Shown: positions 47,745-59,483 of the stretch, piece by piece
How positions within the stretch are numbered: position 1 is the first letter of the stretch
Layout: every line of letters starts with the position of its first letter
Source of the DNA: Candidatus Nitrospira kreftii
GTDB taxonomy: Bacteria; Nitrospirota; Nitrospiria; Nitrospirales; Nitrospiraceae
NCBI GenBank assembly: GCA_014058405.1
Contig: CP047423.1
Location: 3,704,501 to 3,768,500, forward strand
DNA length: 64,000 bases
Direction: 5' to 3'
Made by a program: the position numbers and the translations under genes
The notes under the pieces: generated by a model
Seen by the model: only the letters and a program-made list of their open reading frames with translations
The model's database searches: none
Told to the model about the DNA's origin: nothing

Positions 47745-48059
47745 ATGCAGATTCAGGTCAATACGGATAACCATATCCATGGACGTGAGGAGATCGTCGC
47801 GCTTGTTGAGACCAGCGTCGAGGGAGCGGTCGGGCGATTTCGAGATCGAATTACTCGAGTTGAGGCGCATCTCAGCGATACCAACAGCCATAAGACCAAG
47901 GGGGATGACATCCGGTGCGTGCTGGAGGCCAGACTGGCCGGCCACCAGCCCATCGCCGTCACCCATCAGGCCGCGACCGTCGAGCTCGCGTTGAGTGGAG
48001 CGGCGGACAAACTCGAGCGGTCGGTGGAGAGCACCCTCGATCGCCTCAAGGAGCGATAA
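47745..48059 (+). CDS. HPF/RaiA-family ribosome-associated protein
   Basis: A 104-residue protein with a beta-alpha fold like hibernation factors: MQIQVNTDNHIHGREEIVAL, RVEAHLSDTNSHKTKGDDIR, CVLEARLAGHQPIAVTHQAA, AADKLERSVESTLDRLKER. The basic patches that bind 16S rRNA in true HPF are reduced, so it may be a stress-linked variant. GAGGGAGTCGG upstream provides the ribosome site. It diverges from the guanidine operon. Confidence 0.8.
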   Translation: MQIQVNTDNHIHGREEIVALVETSVEGAVGRFRDRITRVEAHLSDTNSHKTKGDDIRCVLEARLAGHQPIAVTHQAATVELALSGAADKLERSVESTLDRLKER

Positions 48060-48103: not shown

Positions 48104-48577
48104 ATGCGGAAACGTCTTCTCGATCCAGCTCAGAAACGCGTTGCATCCGTTGACCCCTACTGGTTGGACCTCGACAGCCTGGCTGACGTCGAAGTCACGT
48201 CGGAAGACCCTGCACATCCGATTGAAGCTGCACTGTTGCCCAATCGGTCGTCGGGCTGGCGTGCAGGTGAGCTGGGAGAACAAACGATTCGGCTGCTCTT
48301 TTCTTCTCCACAACAAGTTCGCCGGATCCGACTGAACTTCGTGGAGTCTGAAATCGAGCGGGTTCAAGAGTATGTGCTGCGGTGGTCGAGCGATGGGGGA
48401 AATACCTTCCAGGATATCGTGCGTCAACAGTGGAACTTCAGTCCCCAAGGGGCAACCTCGGAAACGGAAGATCATCACGTCGATCTTCCTGGTGTCACGG
48501 CACTGGAGCTCTGCATCATTCCCGACATTGGAGGAACCCGCGCGCTGGCATCTCTTGACCAGATGCGAGTGGCCTAA
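48104..48577 (+). CDS. Discoidin-like (F5/8 type C) protein
   Basis: A 157-residue protein beginning MRKRLLDPAQKRVASVDPYW. It resembles a galactose-binding jelly roll: HPIEAALLPNRSSGWRAGEL, EQTIRLLFSSPQQVRRIRLN, VLRWSSDGGNTFQDIVRQQW. There is no signal peptide, so a cytoplasmic role is likely. A strong ribosome site (AGGAGG, 48091-48096) before ATG 48104 fixes the start. The gene follows the RaiA-like gene by 44 bases and may be co-transcribed. Confidence 0.7.
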   Translation: MRKRLLDPAQKRVASVDPYWLDLDSLADVEVTSEDPAHPIEAALLPNRSSGWRAGELGEQTIRLLFSSPQQVRRIRLNFVESEIERVQEYVLRWSSDGGNTFQDIVRQQWNFSPQGATSETEDHHVDLPGVTALELCIIPDIGGTRALASLDQMRVA

Positions 48578-49926: not shown

Positions 49927-50991
49927 TTACGCGTTCGAGATTAGCTTAGTTGAGACTGGAGGACTGTAGGTGGCTTTCCTACGACTTCCGTCGAACGGTT
50001 CCAGGAGCGACACAAATCGCTCCGTCCAGTTCAGCCAAGAATGCTGCTTGGCGTAAGCCGCGCAATCAGCTGGATCAAGCTTTAACGCGCCAAGCACAGC
50101 CTGACGAAGATCGTTGTGAAGGATCCCAGTCTTGCCTTGCTGCACCACGTCGATCGGACCAGTGACAGGGAAGGCCGCAACCGGCAAGCCACAGGCCATA
50201 GCTTCGAGCAACACCAGTCCGAACGTGTCCGTCAAACTGGGAAACACGAAGACATCAGCCGCACCAAGGTAGGCCGTCAGTTCCTGCCCGCTCTTTTGCC
50301 CGACAAACATTACGTCAGGATAACGCGATCGAAATTGTTCCAGGGCAGGCCCATCTCCTACCACGTACTTAGAACCAGGTATGTCGAGCTTTAGGAAGGC
50401 TTCGATGTTCTTCTCAACTGCCACTCGCCCCATATAGATGGAGATTGGTCGGGGAGCTGATAGAAATGACTTTGGTCCAGGGTGAAACAGTGTAGCGTCC
50501 ACTCCTCTCGCCCAAATGACCAGATTCTTGAATCCCCGCTCTTCCAACCTTGCCCGCATCGACTGTGTGGCTACCATCGTGCGGATGGCACGGCTGTGGT
50601 ATCGCCGCAAATACGCGTAGGACCAACTAATCGGCAGCGGAACCCGAGCACGAACATACTCAGGAAACTGTGTGTGGTACGAGGTGGTAAAGGGCAGCGC
50701 GAGACGATTGCACCAAGCGTTCGTTGCATGGCCGATAGGCCCTTCGGTAGCAATATGAATGGCCTGTGGGCGAAATTCATTCAGCAGGCGCTGGACGCCG
50801 TGCTTCGGGAACGCCGCAAGTTTAATCGAGGGATAGGTCGGACAAGGATAGGTCGTAAACCGGTCCGGAGTGATGATCTGTACCTCGTGACCAAGCTCTT
50901 TCAAGAATTTAGTGGTCTCCCCCAGAGTCCGAACCACTCCGTTGATCTGAGGGTACCACGCATCGGTCGCAACAGTGATTCTCATCGTCAC
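49927..50991 (-). CDS. Family-1/GT4 glycosyltransferase
   Basis: A 354-residue GT-B enzyme like GDP-mannose-dependent mannosyltransferases. Motifs include DAWYPQINGVVRTLGETTKF, HIATEGPIGHATNAWCN and YMGRVAVEKNIEAFLKLD. The donor-site EX7E region is DVFVFPSLTDTFGLVLLEAM. It is last of a three-gene minus-strand row after an LpxH-like phosphoesterase and a membrane aminotransferase, so it probably glycosylates an envelope lipid. The sugar and acceptor are unknown. Confidence 0.87.
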   Translation of the reverse strand: MTMRITVATDAWYPQINGVVRTLGETTKFLKELGHEVQIITPDRFTTYPCPTYPSIKLAAFPKHGVQRLLNEFRPQAIHIATEGPIGHATNAWCNRLALPFTTSYHTQFPEYVRARVPLPISWSYAYLRRYHSRAIRTMVATQSMRARLEERGFKNLVIWARGVDATLFHPGPKSFLSAPRPISIYMGRVAVEKNIEAFLKLDIPGSKYVVGDGPALEQFRSRYPDVMFVGQKSGQELTAYLGAADVFVFPSLTDTFGLVLLEAMACGLPVAAFPVTGPIDVVQQGKTGILHNDLRQAVLGALKLDPADCAAYAKQHSWLNWTERFVSLLEPFDGSRRKATYSPPVSTKLISNA

Positions 50992-51099
50992 AAGTGGAAG
51001 TAATGAACTCTACTGCCTCACGCTGAGCCGCATTGCATCCGTACCACCTCAACCATCTCGCGTCGAACAGTCGAAGACACGGCAGCCTTGATCGGCTGC

Positions 51100-53412
51100 T
51101 CAATGCCTCTGACTCATCTCCTTCAGGCCATAGGGAGGTAGAAATGCCCGCCATTCTCGTGAGGATCGCGGGAGATAGGCCTTGATGTCCGTGAAGGGAT
51201 CGGTAATCAGCTTGATGAACCAGACCATGGAGGTCTTGAAATCATGTAACCAGGCCAAATAAGCAACACGGCCAAGGACTACGACCAGAGTCAGCCCCCA
51301 CCATTGCTGAGCGATGACGGGCCACCGCTCCAGAAAGGCAGAAAAGGTCCAACTCCCTGCCGCCAACATATTGGCGAGAGGAATCAGGCAGTAGGCTGAC
51401 ACAATCATGGTCTTGTTCGGCGTATTGAACCCCAGTAACAACTCTTCCTTGTCGTGACAAGGCGGCTCGACGAGGGCGTGCCCGAATTGGCGAACGAACA
51501 GGGCTACCAAGCTGGCCGTGACCGCAGTCGTGAGATCCGTGAAGATTAGGAAGTAACAATAGATGAAGACACTTGAACTGAAGAGGTGAAACAGTTGATT
51601 CAATGGGTGGCTATGAGACGCGACGTGATCATCATGCTTCCGACGCATGACCTCTGAGTAAAAGGTTTTGAGCGGCTTGGGCATCTGTACAATGCTCCCG
51701 ATCATTTCCCAAGTGAGCCGTAACTTCATAGCTTTCCTCCGTTCCGGCTGGTCGAGTCCTTCCAACCACCAGCCATCCTGTTTCATACGGGATGCGGCAA
51801 CAATCAGTTTTGTGTGCAGCTCTGCGTACTGTTCCGATGCAAAAGCCATGTTGCTCAGGCATCGGCCCGTGCCGACCCAGCTCAGCGTCACCCCTTCGGC
51901 GCGTAAATAGTATTGAAGGAGCCAGTTGTATCGACCCGGCTGCTGGAACAAGATCGTCCAAACCGTCGTCAGATTGACGATGCGCAACGGAAGCGCTCGC
52001 GCTGCGAGATCCCTGTTGACGGAAGCCGCCCATTCAGTGCAGCTATGGTCAGCTTCTTGGTAGAGCTGTGTGGTTTGGGGTTTGGTGACCCAACACAAGA
52101 ATTCATTCATGGCTCCCATGACATGCGGGTGGGCGGAAAATGTGCCGATCACGTACGCCAGTCTCATGGGGTGATCCGGATCGAATCGACGCATTAGATC
52201 TTTTTTGCCGCAGCACACGCCGATCGGCATACCACCGCCGACTGTTTTGCCATAAATCACGACGTCGGCCTGGACGCCAAAGTATTCCTGTGCGCCGCCC
52301 GGTGCCAGCCGAAAGCCAGAATAGACCTCGTCAAAAATGAGCGGGATGTCGCAAGCCGTACAGACCTCACGCAGCTGTTTCAGCCACTGTGCATATGGAC
52401 CGTGGGCCGCTTCAGTCTTTCGGATGTCACTGGTCAAGAGGATTGCGTCGCTCGGAGGCGGGGAATTGGGGTGGAACGCTTGGATCGGATTGACGATGAC
52501 ACCCGCTATATCCTGTTTTATCCTCCGAATGGCATCAAGTGAGGCGGAATTGACGTCTTTCAAGGTGATGCAGTCCTTGATCTCCCGTTCGCTGCCAAGT
52601 CCAGGCTGGACGCCGTCCCACCACCCGTGGTAGGCGCCGGCGAAAGAGACAATGAACTTGCGGCGGGTATTAAAGCGCGCCAGTCGGATGGCCGCCATGA
52701 CAGCTTCTGTGCCGCTCATGTGGAAGGAAATTTCGTCCAACTTAGAGATGGCCTTGAGCATCGCGATGTTGTCTGCCACAATGGGGTGCAATGGCCCTAA
52801 GACAGGCCCCAGACTTTTCACGCGCTCCCATCCCTTCTCCATCCATCCCTTATACTGGTCATATCCGGCGACATTGACTCCGTACGAGCCGGTCACATCG
52901 AGCGACCAGTGACCGTCGAGGTCGCAGAGTTTCGTTCCTTCGGACGCGGTGACGACGGAGCAGAGGTTGAACTTTTCCTGCATCATGCGTGCGAACGGGA
53001 AGGGCACCCGACCGGCATCCGTGAACCGCAGATCAGATAGGCCATCGCGAATGGCGTTGCTCCACATGATCGACTTTGGGTAGTGTTCGCGAAAATAGCC
53101 GGCCAGACGATTCAAAGCACGGTGTCGCTGTGCGGCAGTCTCATTATCGGCGCCATCGGCGGTAAAAAATGTCTCCTCTGTATACGAGTTGGTTTGAACC
53201 CAGCCGGACAGAAGGCGCGAAATAGTTGGCGTGAACGATCTGGCAGGAAGGATGAGCAGCGCCCGCGTCGCGCGCACACAGAACAGGATGACGAACCCGG
53301 CGAGGAGCAAGACTCCGACGGTCGCTCCAAGGTCTCCCCATTGTAGTTGGCATTCGCCTGGCGTGTGGAAACCCACGCATGCTGCCCATCTTAGTAGGTT
53401 GTCCTCGAACAT
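51100..53412 (-). CDS. Membrane aminotransferase fused to Mpo1/DUF962-like domain
   Basis: A 770-residue protein. A membrane helix lies near residues 30-55 (VGVLLLAGFVILFCVRATRA). A class-III PLP aminotransferase or aminomutase domain spans about 100-560, with FHMSGTEAVMAAIRLAR, SFAGAYHGWWDGVQPG, FDEVYSGFRLAPGG and the PLP-lysine motif VIYGKTVGGGMPIG (K389). A C-terminal domain (about 600-740) has HPLNQLFHLF and VRQFGHALVEPP in the arrangement of Mpo1-like DUF962 enzymes, plus several helices. The start at 53412 follows AGGAGGGACT. This fusion suggests action on a lipid amine or amino ketone; the function is not established. Confidence 0.8.
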   Translation of the reverse strand: MFEDNLLRWAACVGFHTPGECQLQWGDLGATVGVLLLAGFVILFCVRATRALLILPARSFTPTISRLLSGWVQTNSYTEETFFTADGADNETAAQRHRALNRLAGYFREHYPKSIMWSNAIRDGLSDLRFTDAGRVPFPFARMMQEKFNLCSVVTASEGTKLCDLDGHWSLDVTGSYGVNVAGYDQYKGWMEKGWERVKSLGPVLGPLHPIVADNIAMLKAISKLDEISFHMSGTEAVMAAIRLARFNTRRKFIVSFAGAYHGWWDGVQPGLGSEREIKDCITLKDVNSASLDAIRRIKQDIAGVIVNPIQAFHPNSPPPSDAILLTSDIRKTEAAHGPYAQWLKQLREVCTACDIPLIFDEVYSGFRLAPGGAQEYFGVQADVVIYGKTVGGGMPIGVCCGKKDLMRRFDPDHPMRLAYVIGTFSAHPHVMGAMNEFLCWVTKPQTTQLYQEADHSCTEWAASVNRDLAARALPLRIVNLTTVWTILFQQPGRYNWLLQYYLRAEGVTLSWVGTGRCLSNMAFASEQYAELHTKLIVAASRMKQDGWWLEGLDQPERRKAMKLRLTWEMIGSIVQMPKPLKTFYSEVMRRKHDDHVASHSHPLNQLFHLFSSSVFIYCYFLIFTDLTTAVTASLVALFVRQFGHALVEPPCHDKEELLLGFNTPNKTMIVSAYCLIPLANMLAAGSWTFSAFLERWPVIAQQWWGLTLVVVLGRVAYLAWLHDFKTSMVWFIKLITDPFTDIKAYLPRSSREWRAFLPPYGLKEMSQRH

Positions 53413-53450
53413 AGTCCCTCCTTCCGCATTCATCTGGTATCGGGCGGTCA

Positions 53451-54308
53451 CTACGCCACGCTGCGCTCGCCTGAGGCAACGACCAGAACCTCATCCGGAA
53501 CCAAAGTCATCCGCTCTCGGTCTGCGACGCGTGAACGTTTCAAGCTCGCAACAGTATCCTCCCAGCGCAGTAGCTCGAGACTCCCATCATGATGTTCAAC
53601 CAGTGCGCTGCAGCTCTCGACCCAATCACCACAGTTGCAATAGATTACGTCGTTCAGCTTCGCGATTTCCGGGCGGTGAATATGACCGCAGACTACGCCG
53701 TCAACCCCGAGGCGAGCTGCCTCGTAGGCCACTACGGCCTCAAAGTTACTGATGAACTGGACGGCGTTCTTGACTTTGTGCTTCAGGAAAGCGGCAAGCG
53801 ACCAGTATGGTAGGTTGGTTTTTCTGCGAACCCAGTGAACAAGATAGTTCGCTTTGAGCAACCAGTCGTACAGCCGGGTGCCCAGCATCGCGATGGCTCT
53901 CGAACTCCGTACCACACTGTCGAATTTATCTCCGTGAGTGATCAGAAACCTGCGGCCGTCCACATTGGTGTGGATCGTCTCTTCCATGATGTGCACATTC
54001 CCGAAGGTCATATCATGATAGTCGCGAAGGATCTCATCATGATTACCCGGAACGTAAACAACCATGGTGCCATGCTTGGCTTTACCCAGGATCGTTCTCA
54101 ATACATTGTTGTGAGATTGCGGCCAGCACATCCTCCGTTTCATTTCCCAGACGTCGATGATATCTCCGACGAGGTAGAGAAACTCGCAATCAACGGAGTG
54201 GAGGAAGTCAAGGAGGTGATCGGCGCTGCAGCCACGGAACCCCAAGTGGACATCTGAAATCCAAACCGTCCGATAGGAAAGCGGATGACTGCGGAGGGAT
54301 TTATTCAC
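53451..54308 (-). CDS. LpxH-like metallophosphoesterase
   Basis: A 285-residue calcineurin-type phosphoesterase with all metal-site motifs: WISDVHLGFRG, LVGDIIDVWEM, VYVPGNHDEILRD, FLITHGDKFDSVV and GVVCGHIHRPEIAK. It resembles UDP-2,3-diacylglucosamine pyrophosphatase but is longer, and no lpxA, lpxB or lpxD are adjacent. The start is GTG 54308, with GGAGG eight bases upstream. It is first in the row leading to the aminotransferase fusion and the glycosyltransferase. Confidence 0.87.
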   Translation of the reverse strand: MNKSLRSHPLSYRTVWISDVHLGFRGCSADHLLDFLHSVDCEFLYLVGDIIDVWEMKRRMCWPQSHNNVLRTILGKAKHGTMVVYVPGNHDEILRDYHDMTFGNVHIMEETIHTNVDGRRFLITHGDKFDSVVRSSRAIAMLGTRLYDWLLKANYLVHWVRRKTNLPYWSLAAFLKHKVKNAVQFISNFEAVVAYEAARLGVDGVVCGHIHRPEIAKLNDVIYCNCGDWVESCSALVEHHDGSLELLRWEDTVASLKRSRVADRERMTLVPDEVLVVASGERSVA

Positions 54309-54601
54309 CCGCTCGGCCTCCAGTGAACTGCGCCTTGCACAGGTTCTGCATGGAAGAAGGATAACGGAGGAGTGTTTCTCATCGATTACAGTTGAGGAAA
54401 TTCTGAGTGACAAAATGATGAGATTTGCGTAATCACCGCAATACAACGATAACAATTCACCCCTCGTGCGGTACAATTTTGTGCGATGCTCCCCGTTGTC
54501 TCCCAGACGACATCCGATCCATGGGACCCAGTTAAGATTTGGTTAACCGTGCGGATCTGGATTGACCAAGAGGGCTCGGCTCTTCACAATGGACGGGTGG
54601 C

Positions 54602-55381
54602 TTGTCGGCTGGAAACTATGAAAGACGTCGGCTGTTTGTGATTCAGCGAGCCGCCCACCTCTGGTCGGTCAAGAAGCCACCTTTTAAGCCGATCACCCTT
54701 GTGCTCTTGCCGGGACTCGATGGCACCGATGTGTTCTTTCGTCCGTTGTTGATGACGTTGCCTGAGTGGATAGCGCCGCTGGTCGTCCACTTTCCACCCT
54801 CAGGGGTAAATGAATACCCCGACTTGCTCCAGATGATTCGTGCCATGCTGGCGGAGACACCGCGTTACTATGTACTCGGCTGGTCGTTTTCCGGACCTTT
54901 GGCGCTCATGCTCGCCCAAGCCGAGCCGGAAAAGGTACAGGGTGTCGTTCTGGTCTCGTCCTTCGTCCGTCCGCCCCGACGTCTCTTCGCGCAGTTGCGC
55001 TGGGCCGCCATCACACCCGTGGTTTGGCTTCTCCGTTTTGGAAAGAGACTTCCTGTCTGGCTTTCGCGAAGCTCGCACGATCGGCTGCGACTAGATAAGA
55101 CGGAAACATGGAAACGGGTAAACGCTGAGATGATCGCGGCACGCATTCGCACGCTCCTCGATGTGGATGCGCGACATCTGTTGAAGCACTGTCCCTGTCC
55201 GGTGCTGTGTGTCGTTGGAGGAAACGACAGGATCGTGCCGTACGATAATGTAGAAGAAATGGCTCGCATACGTGAGTCGGTTCGTGTGCGAACGATTACC
55301 GGCGAGCATTTCGCTATTTATACCAACCCGACGGCCGCGTTAGCCGCGATCACGGAGTTCATCATAACGGAAACCCGTTGA
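54602..55381 (+). CDS. Alpha/beta hydrolase
   Basis: A 259-residue protein. The oxyanion region LLPGLDGTDVFFRPLL, nucleophile elbow YVLGWSFSGPLALML (serine), late aspartate region CVVGGNDRIVPYDNVEEM and histidine GEHFAIY complete a serine hydrolase triad. There is no signal peptide; a positively charged patch near LRWAAITPVVWLLRFGKRL could bind membranes. The start is TTG 54602 or GTG 54638, both weakly supported. It diverges from the LpxH-like gene. Confidence 0.8.
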   Translation: MSAGNYERRRLFVIQRAAHLWSVKKPPFKPITLVLLPGLDGTDVFFRPLLMTLPEWIAPLVVHFPPSGVNEYPDLLQMIRAMLAETPRYYVLGWSFSGPLALMLAQAEPEKVQGVVLVSSFVRPPRRLFAQLRWAAITPVVWLLRFGKRLPVWLSRSSHDRLRLDKTETWKRVNAEMIAARIRTLLDVDARHLLKHCPCPVLCVVGGNDRIVPYDNVEEMARIRESVRVRTITGEHFAIYTNPTAALAAITEFIITETR

Positions 55382-55555: not shown

Positions 55556-56584
55556 ATGACCCTGCTACCATATACAGGCGTTTACCTTAACCAAGAAGCT
55601 GCCTCATGGCACAGGGTGACACAGATGTACGATGGTGCCACGCCTCGCGGTACTCAATGGCAACGGCTGTTCTCTCTCTTTGCTGGGCTATCTATTATTA
55701 TGATCTTCGTGAACGGATGTTCCGTCAAGCGCCTGCTGGTCGACGTTGTAGGGAATGCGCTGACGGGGGACTCTGAGATCTTGGCCTCCGACGATGACCC
55801 GGATCTCATCCGAGAGGCAATTCCTTTTGGCCTGAAGACTCTCGAAAGTTTTCTGGAGAGTTCGCCCAATCATCGAGGCATACTTTTTTCCTCCGCGAAA
55901 GGCTTTACCACCTATGCGTACCTCCTCCAGGATGAGGCCGACCGATTGGAAGAAAACGACCGCCGTCGGGCCCGGCTGCTGCGCGCTCGCATCAAAAGGC
56001 TATATTTGCGAGGCCGTGAGTATGCACTCAGGGGATTAGAGCTCGATCACCCCCAGTTCGAAGCGCTGCTACGACGCGATCAGGCTTCCGTCTTGGCCCA
56101 GACCACAGGAAAGGATGCATCCTTTCTCTATTGGGCTGGTGTGTCTTGGGGCGGTGCTCTCTCTGCCGGATCGGACGATCTCGCATTAGTCTCCGAAGCA
56201 CCACTGTTTGCCGCTTTGGTGCGCCGAGTCGTAGAAGTAGGCGAATGGTACGAAGCGGGAGCCGCGTACGAATTTCTCATCTCATACGAAGCAAGCCGTC
56301 TGGGCGGCAGCGCCGGTCTGGCTCGTGAGCATTTTCGCCGTGCGCTGGCACTCACGGATACTCCGCGCGCCTCCCTGTTCGTGGCGCTGGCGGAAGGCCT
56401 CTCGATCAAGGAGCAGAACCTCGACGAATTCAAAGCGCTTCTGGAGCGCGCATTGGCCGTCGATCCTGACCGTGAACCGAAAGGGCGTCTTGTCAACGTG
56501 CTGGCCCAGCGTCGGGCCCGGTGGCTCCTCGCGCGCATTCCCGAACTCTTTTTAGATATTGATCACAAGGAGGTCGCCCCATGA
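55556..56584 (+). CDS. TRAP transporter TatT-component lipoprotein
   Basis: A 342-residue protein with a lipobox FVNGC after a hydrophobic segment (LSIIMIFVNGC near residue 52). TPR-like helices follow, with the TatT pattern IREAIPFGLKTLESFLESSP, RLYLRGREYALRGLEL and LYWAGVSWGGALSAGSDD. TatT forms a trimeric periplasmic partner of TRAP binding proteins. It overlaps the next gene's ATG by four bases. The start may be ATG 55625. Confidence 0.85.
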   Translation: MTLLPYTGVYLNQEAASWHRVTQMYDGATPRGTQWQRLFSLFAGLSIIMIFVNGCSVKRLLVDVVGNALTGDSEILASDDDPDLIREAIPFGLKTLESFLESSPNHRGILFSSAKGFTTYAYLLQDEADRLEENDRRRARLLRARIKRLYLRGREYALRGLELDHPQFEALLRRDQASVLAQTTGKDASFLYWAGVSWGGALSAGSDDLALVSEAPLFAALVRRVVEVGEWYEAGAAYEFLISYEASRLGGSAGLAREHFRRALALTDTPRASLFVALAEGLSIKEQNLDEFKALLERALAVDPDREPKGRLVNVLAQRRARWLLARIPELFLDIDHKEVAP

Positions 56585-57575
56585 AACGAACGACCCTCGC
56601 AGGTCTTATTATTACGGCCATCCTCCTCGTGTGTCAGACGGTCTCAGCCGAAACCATCAAATTAGGGACCTTGGCCCCGAACAATTCACCCTATTACGAT
56701 ATCCTGCGAGATCTTGGCGAGGATTGGGCGAAGATCTCGAACGGGTCCGTTCGTCTGCGTATTTACGCCGGTGGTGTGGCCGGCGATGATCCCGACATGG
56801 TCAGGAAAATGCGAATCGGGCACTTGTGGCCGGCTCAGGTCTCTACGAGATCGCTCACGAGACCAAGGCGATCCAACTACCCATGATGTTTCGCGACGAC
56901 GACGAGTGGGATCATGTTCGGACACAGATCGCCGGAAAACTGGAAAAGATCTATGCCGCGAAGGGATTCAGAGTGCTCCTCTGGGGAGACGGCGGCTGGG
57001 TCTACCTGTTTACGCAAAAGCCCGTCGTCCATCCAGATGATCTGAAACCCCTCCGGCTGTTTGTGTGGGCCGGCGATCAGGATAACTTACAGGCGTGGAA
57101 GAATTTGGGCTACCGCGCGGTTCCGCTCGCCGTGAACGAAATTCATTCCGCGCTCCACTCAGGCTTGATCAATGCCTACATCACCACTCCACTCGCCGCG
57201 CTCTCGTTTCAATGGTTCGGCTTGAGCAAGGAAATGACTGACGTGAAGGTGGTCCCTCTTGTCGGCGCCCTCGTGATCGCGGAAAGAAAGTGGCAGGCAA
57301 TTCCCGTTGAAATCAGGGAACACCTTGTTCAATCCTCGCAAGAGGCCGGCAAGCGTTTCCTTGTTCAAATGAGGCAGCATAGTGCCGAGGCTGTCAAAGT
57401 GATGCAACAACATGGGCTCAAGATCCATGCCGTGTCGCCCGATGTGCTGGCCGAATGGAACAAGCGGTTCCGGGCCAATTACCCCACCATCATGGGCGAA
57501 AACGTTCCCCCGGAACTTGTCGCTGAAGTAGAACGGATTCGCGACGAGTACCGGGCGGCAAAGCGTCTTCCCTAA
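56581..57575 (+). pseudogene. dctP: TRAP transporter binding protein DctP, frameshifted
   Basis: The first frame (from 56581) gives a signal peptide (LIITAILLVCQTVSA) and the DctP start ETIKLGTLAPNNSPYYDILR to MVRKMRIG. It then drifts into HLWPAQVSTR and stops at 56886. The DctP sequence resumes in another frame near 56826 as AGSGLYEIAHETKAIQLPMM, running to the stop at 57575 (RDDDEWDHVRTQIAG, VNEIHSALHSGLINAYITTP). A loss of one base near 56815-56828 would explain it. TatT and DctQM on each side are intact, so this may be an error in the sequence. Confidence 0.75.
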
Positions 57576-57659
57576 ACGGGACAGATCGGACATCGTCAAG
57601 CTGGCGGCGGTTCCCCGCCATGCACATCGATGCGGAACGGATAGGACTGAGACAGGCAC

Positions 57660-59483
57660 ATGGCGACGGACAGCACGAGCCGGTTCAACGGGCTCACACA
57701 GGCAACAGCCCTGTTTCGCTGGGGTGAAAACAGCCTGGCAGGGCTCACCTTGCTGCTGATGGCCGGTCTGCCTGTGACAGAAATCGCGCTCCGTGTCCTC
57801 TTCAACACCGGGATTCCTGCTTCTTCCACCTACGTCCAGAATCTGACTCTATGGGTCGGATTTTCGGGCGCGGTGCTTGCGGCGAGGGACGACGGCCATC
57901 TGACTTTTTTCCTCGGGAGAGATCTCTTCCCTCAGGGCACGCACAGTTACTGGGTCGCCTTGATCGCGATGGTCTCAACAGCTGTCGCCGCCAGCCTGAG
58001 CTGGGCCGCGCTGGATTTTGTGCGCGCCGATATGCAGTCGCCTGTGGTCATTGCCGGGTGGTTGCCGACATGGGCGGTGGAAGCGATTCTTCCGGCAAGT
58101 TTCGCCGTCATCGCGGTCCGTTTTGCCATGAAGCCGGAGACCGGGTTGGCCCGACTGTTTGCCTTGCTTGGCATCCCTCTCGCCGCGGGCATCGGGTTTC
58201 TTATGCCGGGGGACTCGCCCGAACTTATGTGGGCGTCGCTCTTCGTCTTGTTTCTTGCAGCGGTTCTCGGGACACCCATTTTTATTATCCTAGGAGGCGT
58301 GACGCTGCTGCTCTTCCGGATGGAAGGAACGAGCGCAGCGGCGATTCCCGTCGAAACCTACCGCCTCGTGGTTTCTCCGTCGATTCCGGCCATTCCCCTC
58401 TTCACATTGGCCGGGTATGTCCTTGCGGAAGGCGGCGCAAGCCGCCGGCTCGTTCGCGTATTCCGCGCATGGTTCGGCTGGCTTCCAGGCGGGCTGGCGG
58501 TCGTCGTGACGATGTTGTGCGCATTTCTTACGACCTTTACCGGCGCATCGGGCGTCACCATCTTGGCGGTCGGCGGGCTCCTGCTTCCCGTTTTGATCGA
58601 GAGCGGGTATCGCAAAAGTTTCTCGATCGGACTGCTCACCAGCTCTGGCTCTGTCGGACTCCTGTTCCCGCCGAGTCTTGCGGTCATTCTGTACGGCGTC
58701 ATGGCACATGTGTCCATACTGGATCTGTTCAAGGCCGGTATCCTGCCCGGCCTCCTTCTGGTGACGGCGGTGTGCCTGTTGGGGATTCGGGAAGCATGGA
58801 GCAAGACCGGGCCGCGGGTCCCTTTTGCGCTGGGCGAAGGCATGACCGCGCTGTGGGAAGCCAAATGGGAGCTGATGATCCCCGTCCTCGTCCTCGGCAG
58901 TTTGTTCGGCGGCTATGGGACACTCATCGAGACGGCAGCCATCACGGCCGTATACACCATGGTGGTGGAGGTACTAATACACAGGGAATTGAATGTTCGG
59001 CGAGACTTTCCCTCGGTCTTGATCAAGTGCCTCACGCTCATTGGCGGCGTCTTTGCCATCCTCGGCGTGGCAATGGGTCTCGCGAATTATCTCGTCGACG
59101 CGGAAGTTCCCATGAGTGCGGCAAACTGGTTTCAAACCCACATCGAGTCGAAATTCGTCTTCCTGCTGGCGCTGAACCTGTTCCTGATTCTAGTCGGCAG
59201 TGTGTTGGACATTTTCTCAGCCATCACGATCGTGGTCCCGTTGATACAGCCGATCAGCCAGGTATTCGGCATCGATCCCCTGCATCTCGGCATGATCTTT
59301 TTGCTCAACATGCAACTGGGATATTTGACGCCGCCGGTCGGTCTCGATTTGTTTTTTGCCTCCTACCGGTTCGGCGCGCCGCTGGCGCAGGTGTTCCGGT
59401 ACACCTTTCCGTTTTTCATCGCCATGCTCATCGTGTTGTTGCTTGTGACCTACGTGCCATGGCTGTCGCTGGCGTTCGTATAA
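57660..59483 (+). CDS. dctM: Fused TRAP transporter permease DctQM
   Basis: A 607-residue permease. About residues 1-170 are the small DctQ part with four helices; about 180-607 are the large DctM part with some 12 helices. Signatures are IFIILGGVTLLLFRMEGTSA, TTFTGASGVTILAVGGLLLP, GSVGLLFPPSLAVILYGVMA and LNMQLGYLTPPVGLDLFFAS. With TatT and DctP it forms a Na+-coupled uptake system for an organic anion; the substrate is unknown. A long open frame in another phase overlaps this gene and is not coding. Confidence 0.92.
   Translation: MATDSTSRFNGLTQATALFRWGENSLAGLTLLLMAGLPVTEIALRVLFNTGIPASSTYVQNLTLWVGFSGAVLAARDDGHLTFFLGRDLFPQGTHSYWVALIAMVSTAVAASLSWAALDFVRADMQSPVVIAGWLPTWAVEAILPASFAVIAVRFAMKPETGLARLFALLGIPLAAGIGFLMPGDSPELMWASLFVLFLAAVLGTPIFIILGGVTLLLFRMEGTSAAAIPVETYRLVVSPSIPAIPLFTLAGYVLAEGGASRRLVRVFRAWFGWLPGGLAVVVTMLCAFLTTFTGASGVTILAVGGLLLPVLIESGYRKSFSIGLLTSSGSVGLLFPPSLAVILYGVMAHVSILDLFKAGILPGLLLVTAVCLLGIREAWSKTGPRVPFALGEGMTALWEAKWELMIPVLVLGSLFGGYGTLIETAAITAVYTMVVEVLIHRELNVRRDFPSVLIKCLTLIGGVFAILGVAMGLANYLVDAEVPMSAANWFQTHIESKFVFLLALNLFLILVGSVLDIFSAITIVVPLIQPISQVFGIDPLHLGMIFLLNMQLGYLTPPVGLDLFFASYRFGAPLAQVFRYTFPFFIAMLIVLLLVTYVPWLSLAFV

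Follow-up and report, generated by a model that had tools for sequence, protein, structure and literature searches.

The window analysed here, a stretch of 64,000 nucleotides from the complete 4.13 Mb genome of Candidatus Nitrospira kreftii, carries on its minus strand an operon of three open reading frames. They encode a metallophosphoesterase (MPE), a fusion of a class-III aminotransferase (AT) with an Mpo1/DUF962-like domain (MPO), and a GT4 glycosyltransferase (GT4). An earlier note on this DNA had given coordinates for the operon, and these were right. The following features were located:

54407..54434, minus strand: Pho-box-like array of three half-sites with 11-bp spacing (GATTACGCAAATCTCATCATTTTGTCAC), starting 126 bp upstream of the MPE start
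53451..54308, minus strand: MPE, calcineurin-type metallophosphoesterase, 285 aa; GTG start with a GGAGG site; PlcP-like by context
51100..53412, minus strand: AT-MPO fusion protein, 770 aa; ATG start
53275..53331, minus strand: N-terminal transmembrane helix of AT-MPO, residues 28-46; hydropathy 2.64, predicted helix 25-54
51808..52968, minus strand: class-III aminotransferase domain, residues about 149-535; PF00202 (1.6e-30), fold match to the AMT domain 6kfm
52246..52248, minus strand: PLP lysine K389 (YGKTVGGG), invariant in the family alignment
51178..51678, minus strand: Mpo1/DUF962-like membrane domain, residues 579-745; invariant DDH, H, NQ, H, GH, E and TDP..D
49927..50991, minus strand: GT4 glycosyltransferase, 354 aa; PF13439 and PF00534

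The MPE start matches that of 285-aa homologues in two other loci (L024, L025). For the fusion protein, translation most likely starts at the ATG at position 53412 (770 aa) and not at the GTG at position 53451, because an AAGGAGG ribosome-binding site precedes the ATG and because this start agrees with 770-aa homologues.

Several genes on the plus strand surround the operon. The divergent neighbour of MPE (54602-55381) encodes an alpha/beta hydrolase that is BioH-like (below the cut-off), and homologues of this protein occupy the same MPE-adjoining place in several other Nitrospira loci. At 55556-59483 a TRAP transporter is encoded, which consists of a DctP-like part and a fused DctQM permease; its genes follow that of a 342-aa protein whose start resembles that of a lipoprotein. 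Homologues of the transporter genes are found close to the module in several Nitrospira loci, and a link to lipid or acid transport is possible. A 104-aa reading frame (47745-48059) resembles the ribosome hibernation factor HPF as judged by eye, and at 48104-48577 lies the gene of a small protein in which an F5/8 type C (discoidin) domain was recognized (5e-8).

Structural properties of the encoded proteins

The earlier note had described the central protein as a membrane-anchored class-III aminotransferase with the PLP lysine in the motif YGKTVGGG, and our data confirm this description. The domain matches Aminotran_3 (PF00202) with an E-value of 1.6e-30 (106.6 bits, cut-off 30.5), the lysine is K389 of the 770-aa form, and both K389 and the PLP aspartate D361 are invariant across fused and unfused AT relatives. 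The single N-terminal helix (residues 28-46) is predicted to anchor the protein in the membrane. When solved structures were compared, the AMT domain of mycosubtilin synthase (6kfm) was the best relative by sequence (2.6e-45) and also by fold (4.7e-26), with glutamate-1-semialdehyde aminomutase (HemL) ranking behind. The protein's AlphaFold2 model has a mean pLDDT of 85. The AMT domain adds a beta-amino group to an acyl chain. AT shares fold and PLP residues with this group of enzymes, but differs from it in being membrane-anchored and in standing off any assembly line. A HemL identity of AT was rejected, since the score of 163.9 bits was far below the TIGR00713 equivalog cut-off of 527.3. A separate HemL-like homologue is present elsewhere in the same genome.

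For the C-terminal part, the earlier note had suggested similarity to Mpo1/DUF962. The window domain scored 15.7-18.7 bits against the profile of the Mpo1 2-hydroxy fatty acid dioxygenase family (PF06127), which is below the gathering score of 24, yet every one of the 26 relatives scanned, whether fused or stand-alone, matched this profile (best E-value 3.9e-7), and it was the only family matched by more than one of them. Stand-alone MPO relatives even exceeded the cut-off in several genomes (24-26 bits). The residues DDH, H, NQ, H, RQxGH, E, D, E and TDPxxD are invariant in MPO, and those of the H-x4-N-x3-H and GH motifs are common to MPO and canonical Mpo1-like proteins when the sequences are read by eye. 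Alignment with long canonical Mpo1-like proteins by hhalign covered 24 columns over the motif only, at a probability of 1 percent. MPO is predicted to be all-helical and of membrane type (model pLDDT 87). A Foldseek search of the PDB and of viral models with the MPO model gave no match at E <= 0.001; this lack of a match is no sign of a different fold. Because the profile matches are below the cut-off but consistent, and because the motif is partly common, we class MPO as a distant relative of Mpo1 with a signature of its own, and the suggestion of the earlier note is supported. MPO differs from Mpo1 by the additional invariant DDH and TDP..D residues, by the sub-cut-off scores of most of its members and by its fusion to, or pairing with, an aminotransferase. 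Since the relationship is only a distant one, the chemistry of MPO may differ as well. A search of 148 Nitrospirota genomes detected no canonical Mpo1-like protein with a score above the cut-off; in some of the genomes surveyed such proteins co-occur with MPO.

MPE had been called LpxH-like in the earlier note. Membership in the LpxH superfamily could be verified, but identity with LpxH itself (UDP-2,3-diacylglucosamine diphosphatase) was rejected, as the protein reached only 47.4 and 47.0 bits against NCBIfam equivalog cut-offs of 134 and 190. MPE is better read as a PlcP-like enzyme, which would convert phospholipids to diacylglycerol, than as a relative of the LpxH of lipid A synthesis. GT4 showed weak similarity, below the cut-off, to glycolipid synthase models. 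The likeness of MPE to PlcP and of GT4 to Agt rests on gene context, set beside the published descriptions of the two enzymes. The substrate of GT4 is probably diacylglycerol rather than an amino-lipid itself. The earlier note had proposed that the operon makes and glycosylates an amino-lipid; the membrane-lipid context stands and we retain the amino-lipid as a putative product, but its glycosylation is probably not the task of GT4. In one Nitrospira genome (G077, C1:4470434-4471267) the MPE match carries one in-frame TGA, which may point to a pseudogene or to a mistake in the assembly.

Occurrence and gene neighbourhood of the AT-MPO pair

Among 59 Nitrospira genomes, MPE was found in 7, MPO in 9 and the GT4 ortholog (at least 70 percent identity) in 10, and these genome sets are nested if fragments at contig ends are excepted. 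The module is thus accessory in this genus and not core. MPE and GT4 are linked in most MPE-bearing loci. In the window, all three genes form one operon with GT4 on the same strand as the fusion gene, but in the other Nitrospira loci examined GT4 lies on the opposite strand, and therefore one common transcript is not universal. The synteny expected by the earlier note is supported, with an orientation of GT4 that varies.

A scan of public genomes yielded 80 loci, in which partner genes were mapped by tblastn. Wherever the contig allows, AT is accompanied by MPO, and the two are an obligatory pair that is conserved across many bacterial phyla. In one clade (support 0.974) both parts are fused in 29 of 29 sequences; in its sister clade they are separate genes. 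GT4 is usual in the fused-clade loci and MPE is often present. A phosphatidylserine decarboxylase gene (PSD) was mapped in none of 28 fused-clade loci, and therefore PSD is dispensable for the module. In the split clade, PSD adjoins AT/MPO in 46 of 53 loci. Of the seven other loci, six come from contigs that are short or cut off; in the genome of the seventh, PSD and MPO were found about 9 kb away. The decarboxylase scores 169.6 against the TIGR00163 cut-off of 111.75 and has retained the GST processing motif. Each of the 13 split-type genomes examined has two or more PSD genes, and each of the three fused-type genomes has a single one (3/3). These gene counts characterize the PSD beside AT/MPO in the split clade as an apparently dedicated second paralogue.

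In Gammaproteobacteria and some other bacteria the gene order is AT, PHP-GT4 fusion, PSD, MPO, and the PHP D-x-H-x-H motif was found in nearly all long GT4 proteins. Two PHP sub-types exist, each fused to GT4: VDFHLHSYASNVTDYY versus DLHCHDxNSxxPDELWGR (L054, L073, L089 and L092 compared with L051-L053 and L090). Because two different sub-types are each fused to GT4, the sequences suggest either two fusion events or a deep divergence.

Six fused loci carry BtaA (PF11899/DUF3419, 4e-110) together with a BtaB-like methyltransferase, and MPE lies alongside in most of them. Two Bradyrhizobium loci encode a PmtA-like methyltransferase (145 bits, below the cut-off of 390). The recurring neighbours of AT are thus lipid genes (GT4, MPE, PSD, PHP-GT4, BtaA/BtaB or a PmtA-like methyltransferase). 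Three loci with the fused module (L037, L039, L041) are located on contigs labelled as Bordetella parapertussis and Klebsiella pneumoniae MAGs, and these labels look wrong.

Pho-box-like promoter arrays

Published Pho-box-type half-sites were scored in 250-bp upstream regions with a manually entered motif that follows the published consensus. A simple consensus scan proved noisy, and period-specific tests that included controls took its place. The array upstream of MPE in the window (54407-54434) scored 15.2, and the 95th percentile of other upstream regions was 12.3. Across the loci, triple half-sites with 11-bp spacing were enriched upstream of MPE (p=3e-7), AT (p=8e-4) and BtaA (p=0.002), but since related loci were treated as independent in these tests, the p-values overstate the independent evidence. 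Upstream of the operon-internal PSD there was no enrichment of triple half-sites (p=0.92). When other periods were tried, the AT signal was seen only at period 11 and that of BtaA was strongest there; for MPE the median score was 12.6 at period 11 and 3.3-7.0 at the other periods, some of which also gave low p-values. For Nitrospira alone, period 11 yielded p=7e-6 for MPE and p=0.99 for the operon-internal AT.

Arrays of the same 11-bp type are present in the same genome at pstS and at its upstream porin gene. In this Nitrospira the arrays of the pstS and porin promoters (L167:3397-3424 and L167:4837-4864) are of TGTTAC type, which is possibly a genus-specific form of the Pho-box. Taken together, the promoter sequences suggest that the operon is probably controlled by phosphate starvation, and we infer PhoB as its regulator.

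Putative function of the operon

Lipid renovation under phosphate starvation by the PlcP-Agt system has been described by Sebastian et al. (PMC4796936), and PA3219/PA3218 are the PlcP/Agt pair of P. aeruginosa (PMC8528852). That system and the loci studied here have in common an LpxH-superfamily metallophosphoesterase with a GT4 glycosyltransferase, a Pho-box-like promoter and sometimes btaA/btaB nearby. The neighbourhood of BtaA/BtaB, MPE and AT in fused loci corresponds to the plcP-btaAB arrangement that PMC4796936 describes for Phaeobacter. In contrast, an aminotransferase-Mpo1-like module within the operon is not mentioned in the passages of PMC4796936 and PMC8528852 consulted, and the gammaproteobacterial loci additionally involve the PHP-GT4 fusion and the second PSD. 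The betaine-lipid pathway of BtaA/BtaB also leads to an amine-bearing phosphorus-free lipid, and its genes adjoin AT in the six loci mentioned above; however, the window genome lacks BtaA, and AT-MPO is unrelated to it. The earlier note had called the aminotransferase/Mpo1-like fusion unusual, and in keeping with this we found no publication on the aminotransferase-DUF962 pair in the open-access literature. Thus, phosphate-starvation lipid renovation is known, but to the extent that we could check, no description exists of the aminotransferase-Mpo1 module.

The combination of a phosphoesterase, a lipid glycosyltransferase, PSD, enzymes of betaine-lipid formation and N-methylation, and Pho-type promoters argues for membrane remodelling of the PlcP-Agt type. 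Amine or amino-acid head groups are the common theme of AT, PSD, BtaA and the methyltransferases, and the most economical reading is therefore that AT-MPO supplies the amine moiety of a lipid that lacks phosphorus. On balance, we lean towards an operon for membrane-lipid remodelling in phosphate starvation, with such a role for AT-MPO. From the observed genes, their conservation, the obligatory pairing, the PSD, Bta and PHP contexts and the 11-bp promoter repeats, we infer the enzymatic steps, substrates and products as follows. MPE would strip the phosphate head groups from phospholipids like PlcP, and the diacylglycerol formed would be glycosylated by GT4 in an Agt-like reaction. The MPO part of the membrane-held fusion protein might oxidize a lipid-bound head group at an Mpo1-like metal site, and AT could then aminate the oxidized product in a PLP-dependent reaction to an amine-bearing phosphorus-free lipid, which would stand in for phosphatidylethanolamine. 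In the split clade, the dedicated PSD paralogue would then decarboxylate the resulting amino-acid head group.

In the main rival to this proposal, the target of AT-MPO is the acyl or long-chain moiety of a lipid, so that AMT-like beta-amination of an oxo-fatty acid and Mpo1-like alpha-oxidation would yield an amino-fatty-acid or sphingoid-like lipid. The nearest solved structure of AT, the mycosubtilin AMT domain, does aminate an acyl chain, and Mpo1 itself is described as acting on 2-hydroxy fatty acids. However, the recurring partners (PSD, BtaA, BtaB, PmtA-like methyltransferase, GT4, phosphoesterase) are head-group enzymes, and among the recurring neighbour families, part of which are annotated, we noticed neither an acyltransferase nor an acyl carrier protein. 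We therefore consider this scenario unlikely.

Two further scenarios appear improbable. The operon might serve lipid A or envelope glycan synthesis, with MPE as LpxH-type pyrophosphatase and AT forming an amino sugar. The superfamily membership of MPE fits such a function, as does the fact that sugar C-6' aminotransferases are class-III enzymes, but MPE is far below the LpxH equivalog cut-offs, the partners are glycerolipid enzymes, and with an occurrence in only 7 of 59 Nitrospira genomes MPE is not a core lipid A enzyme. Alternatively, AT-MPO might be catabolic and take nitrogen and carbon from the amine head groups of phospholipids during starvation, building no new lipid. A phosphoesterase is usually close by, and omega-amines serve as substrates for class-III aminotransferases and for the phospholyases related to them; however, a dedicated second PSD would raise and not lower the amount of amine head group, and the co-localization with BtaA/BtaB and a methyltransferase points to synthesis. 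That AT-MPO merely adjoins MPE and GT4 without a functional relation, as the differing GT4/MPE partners of the two clades and the variable orientation of GT4 within Nitrospira might indicate, is very improbable given that the co-localization recurs across phyla and that the presence patterns in Nitrospira are near-identical.

Returning to the remodelling proposal, AT-MPO, joined by PSD in the split clade, could form the centre of a hitherto undescribed biosynthetic pathway whose products are a new class of aminolipids that lack phosphorus. Nitrospira, Binatota, many Proteobacteria, Planctomycetota and Acidobacteriota would make them when starved of phosphate; this wider conclusion we put forward tentatively. 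Nitrifiers and ocean bacteria meet phosphorus scarcity by changing their membranes, and if the proposal is true, an amine-bearing phosphorus-free lipid would fill a gap between the glycolipid, betaine lipid and ornithine lipid pathways. It would also provide a gene marker for such a lipid in metagenomes, and it would explain what a widespread but unannotated aminotransferase does, and likewise the second phosphatidylserine decarboxylase of many Gammaproteobacteria.
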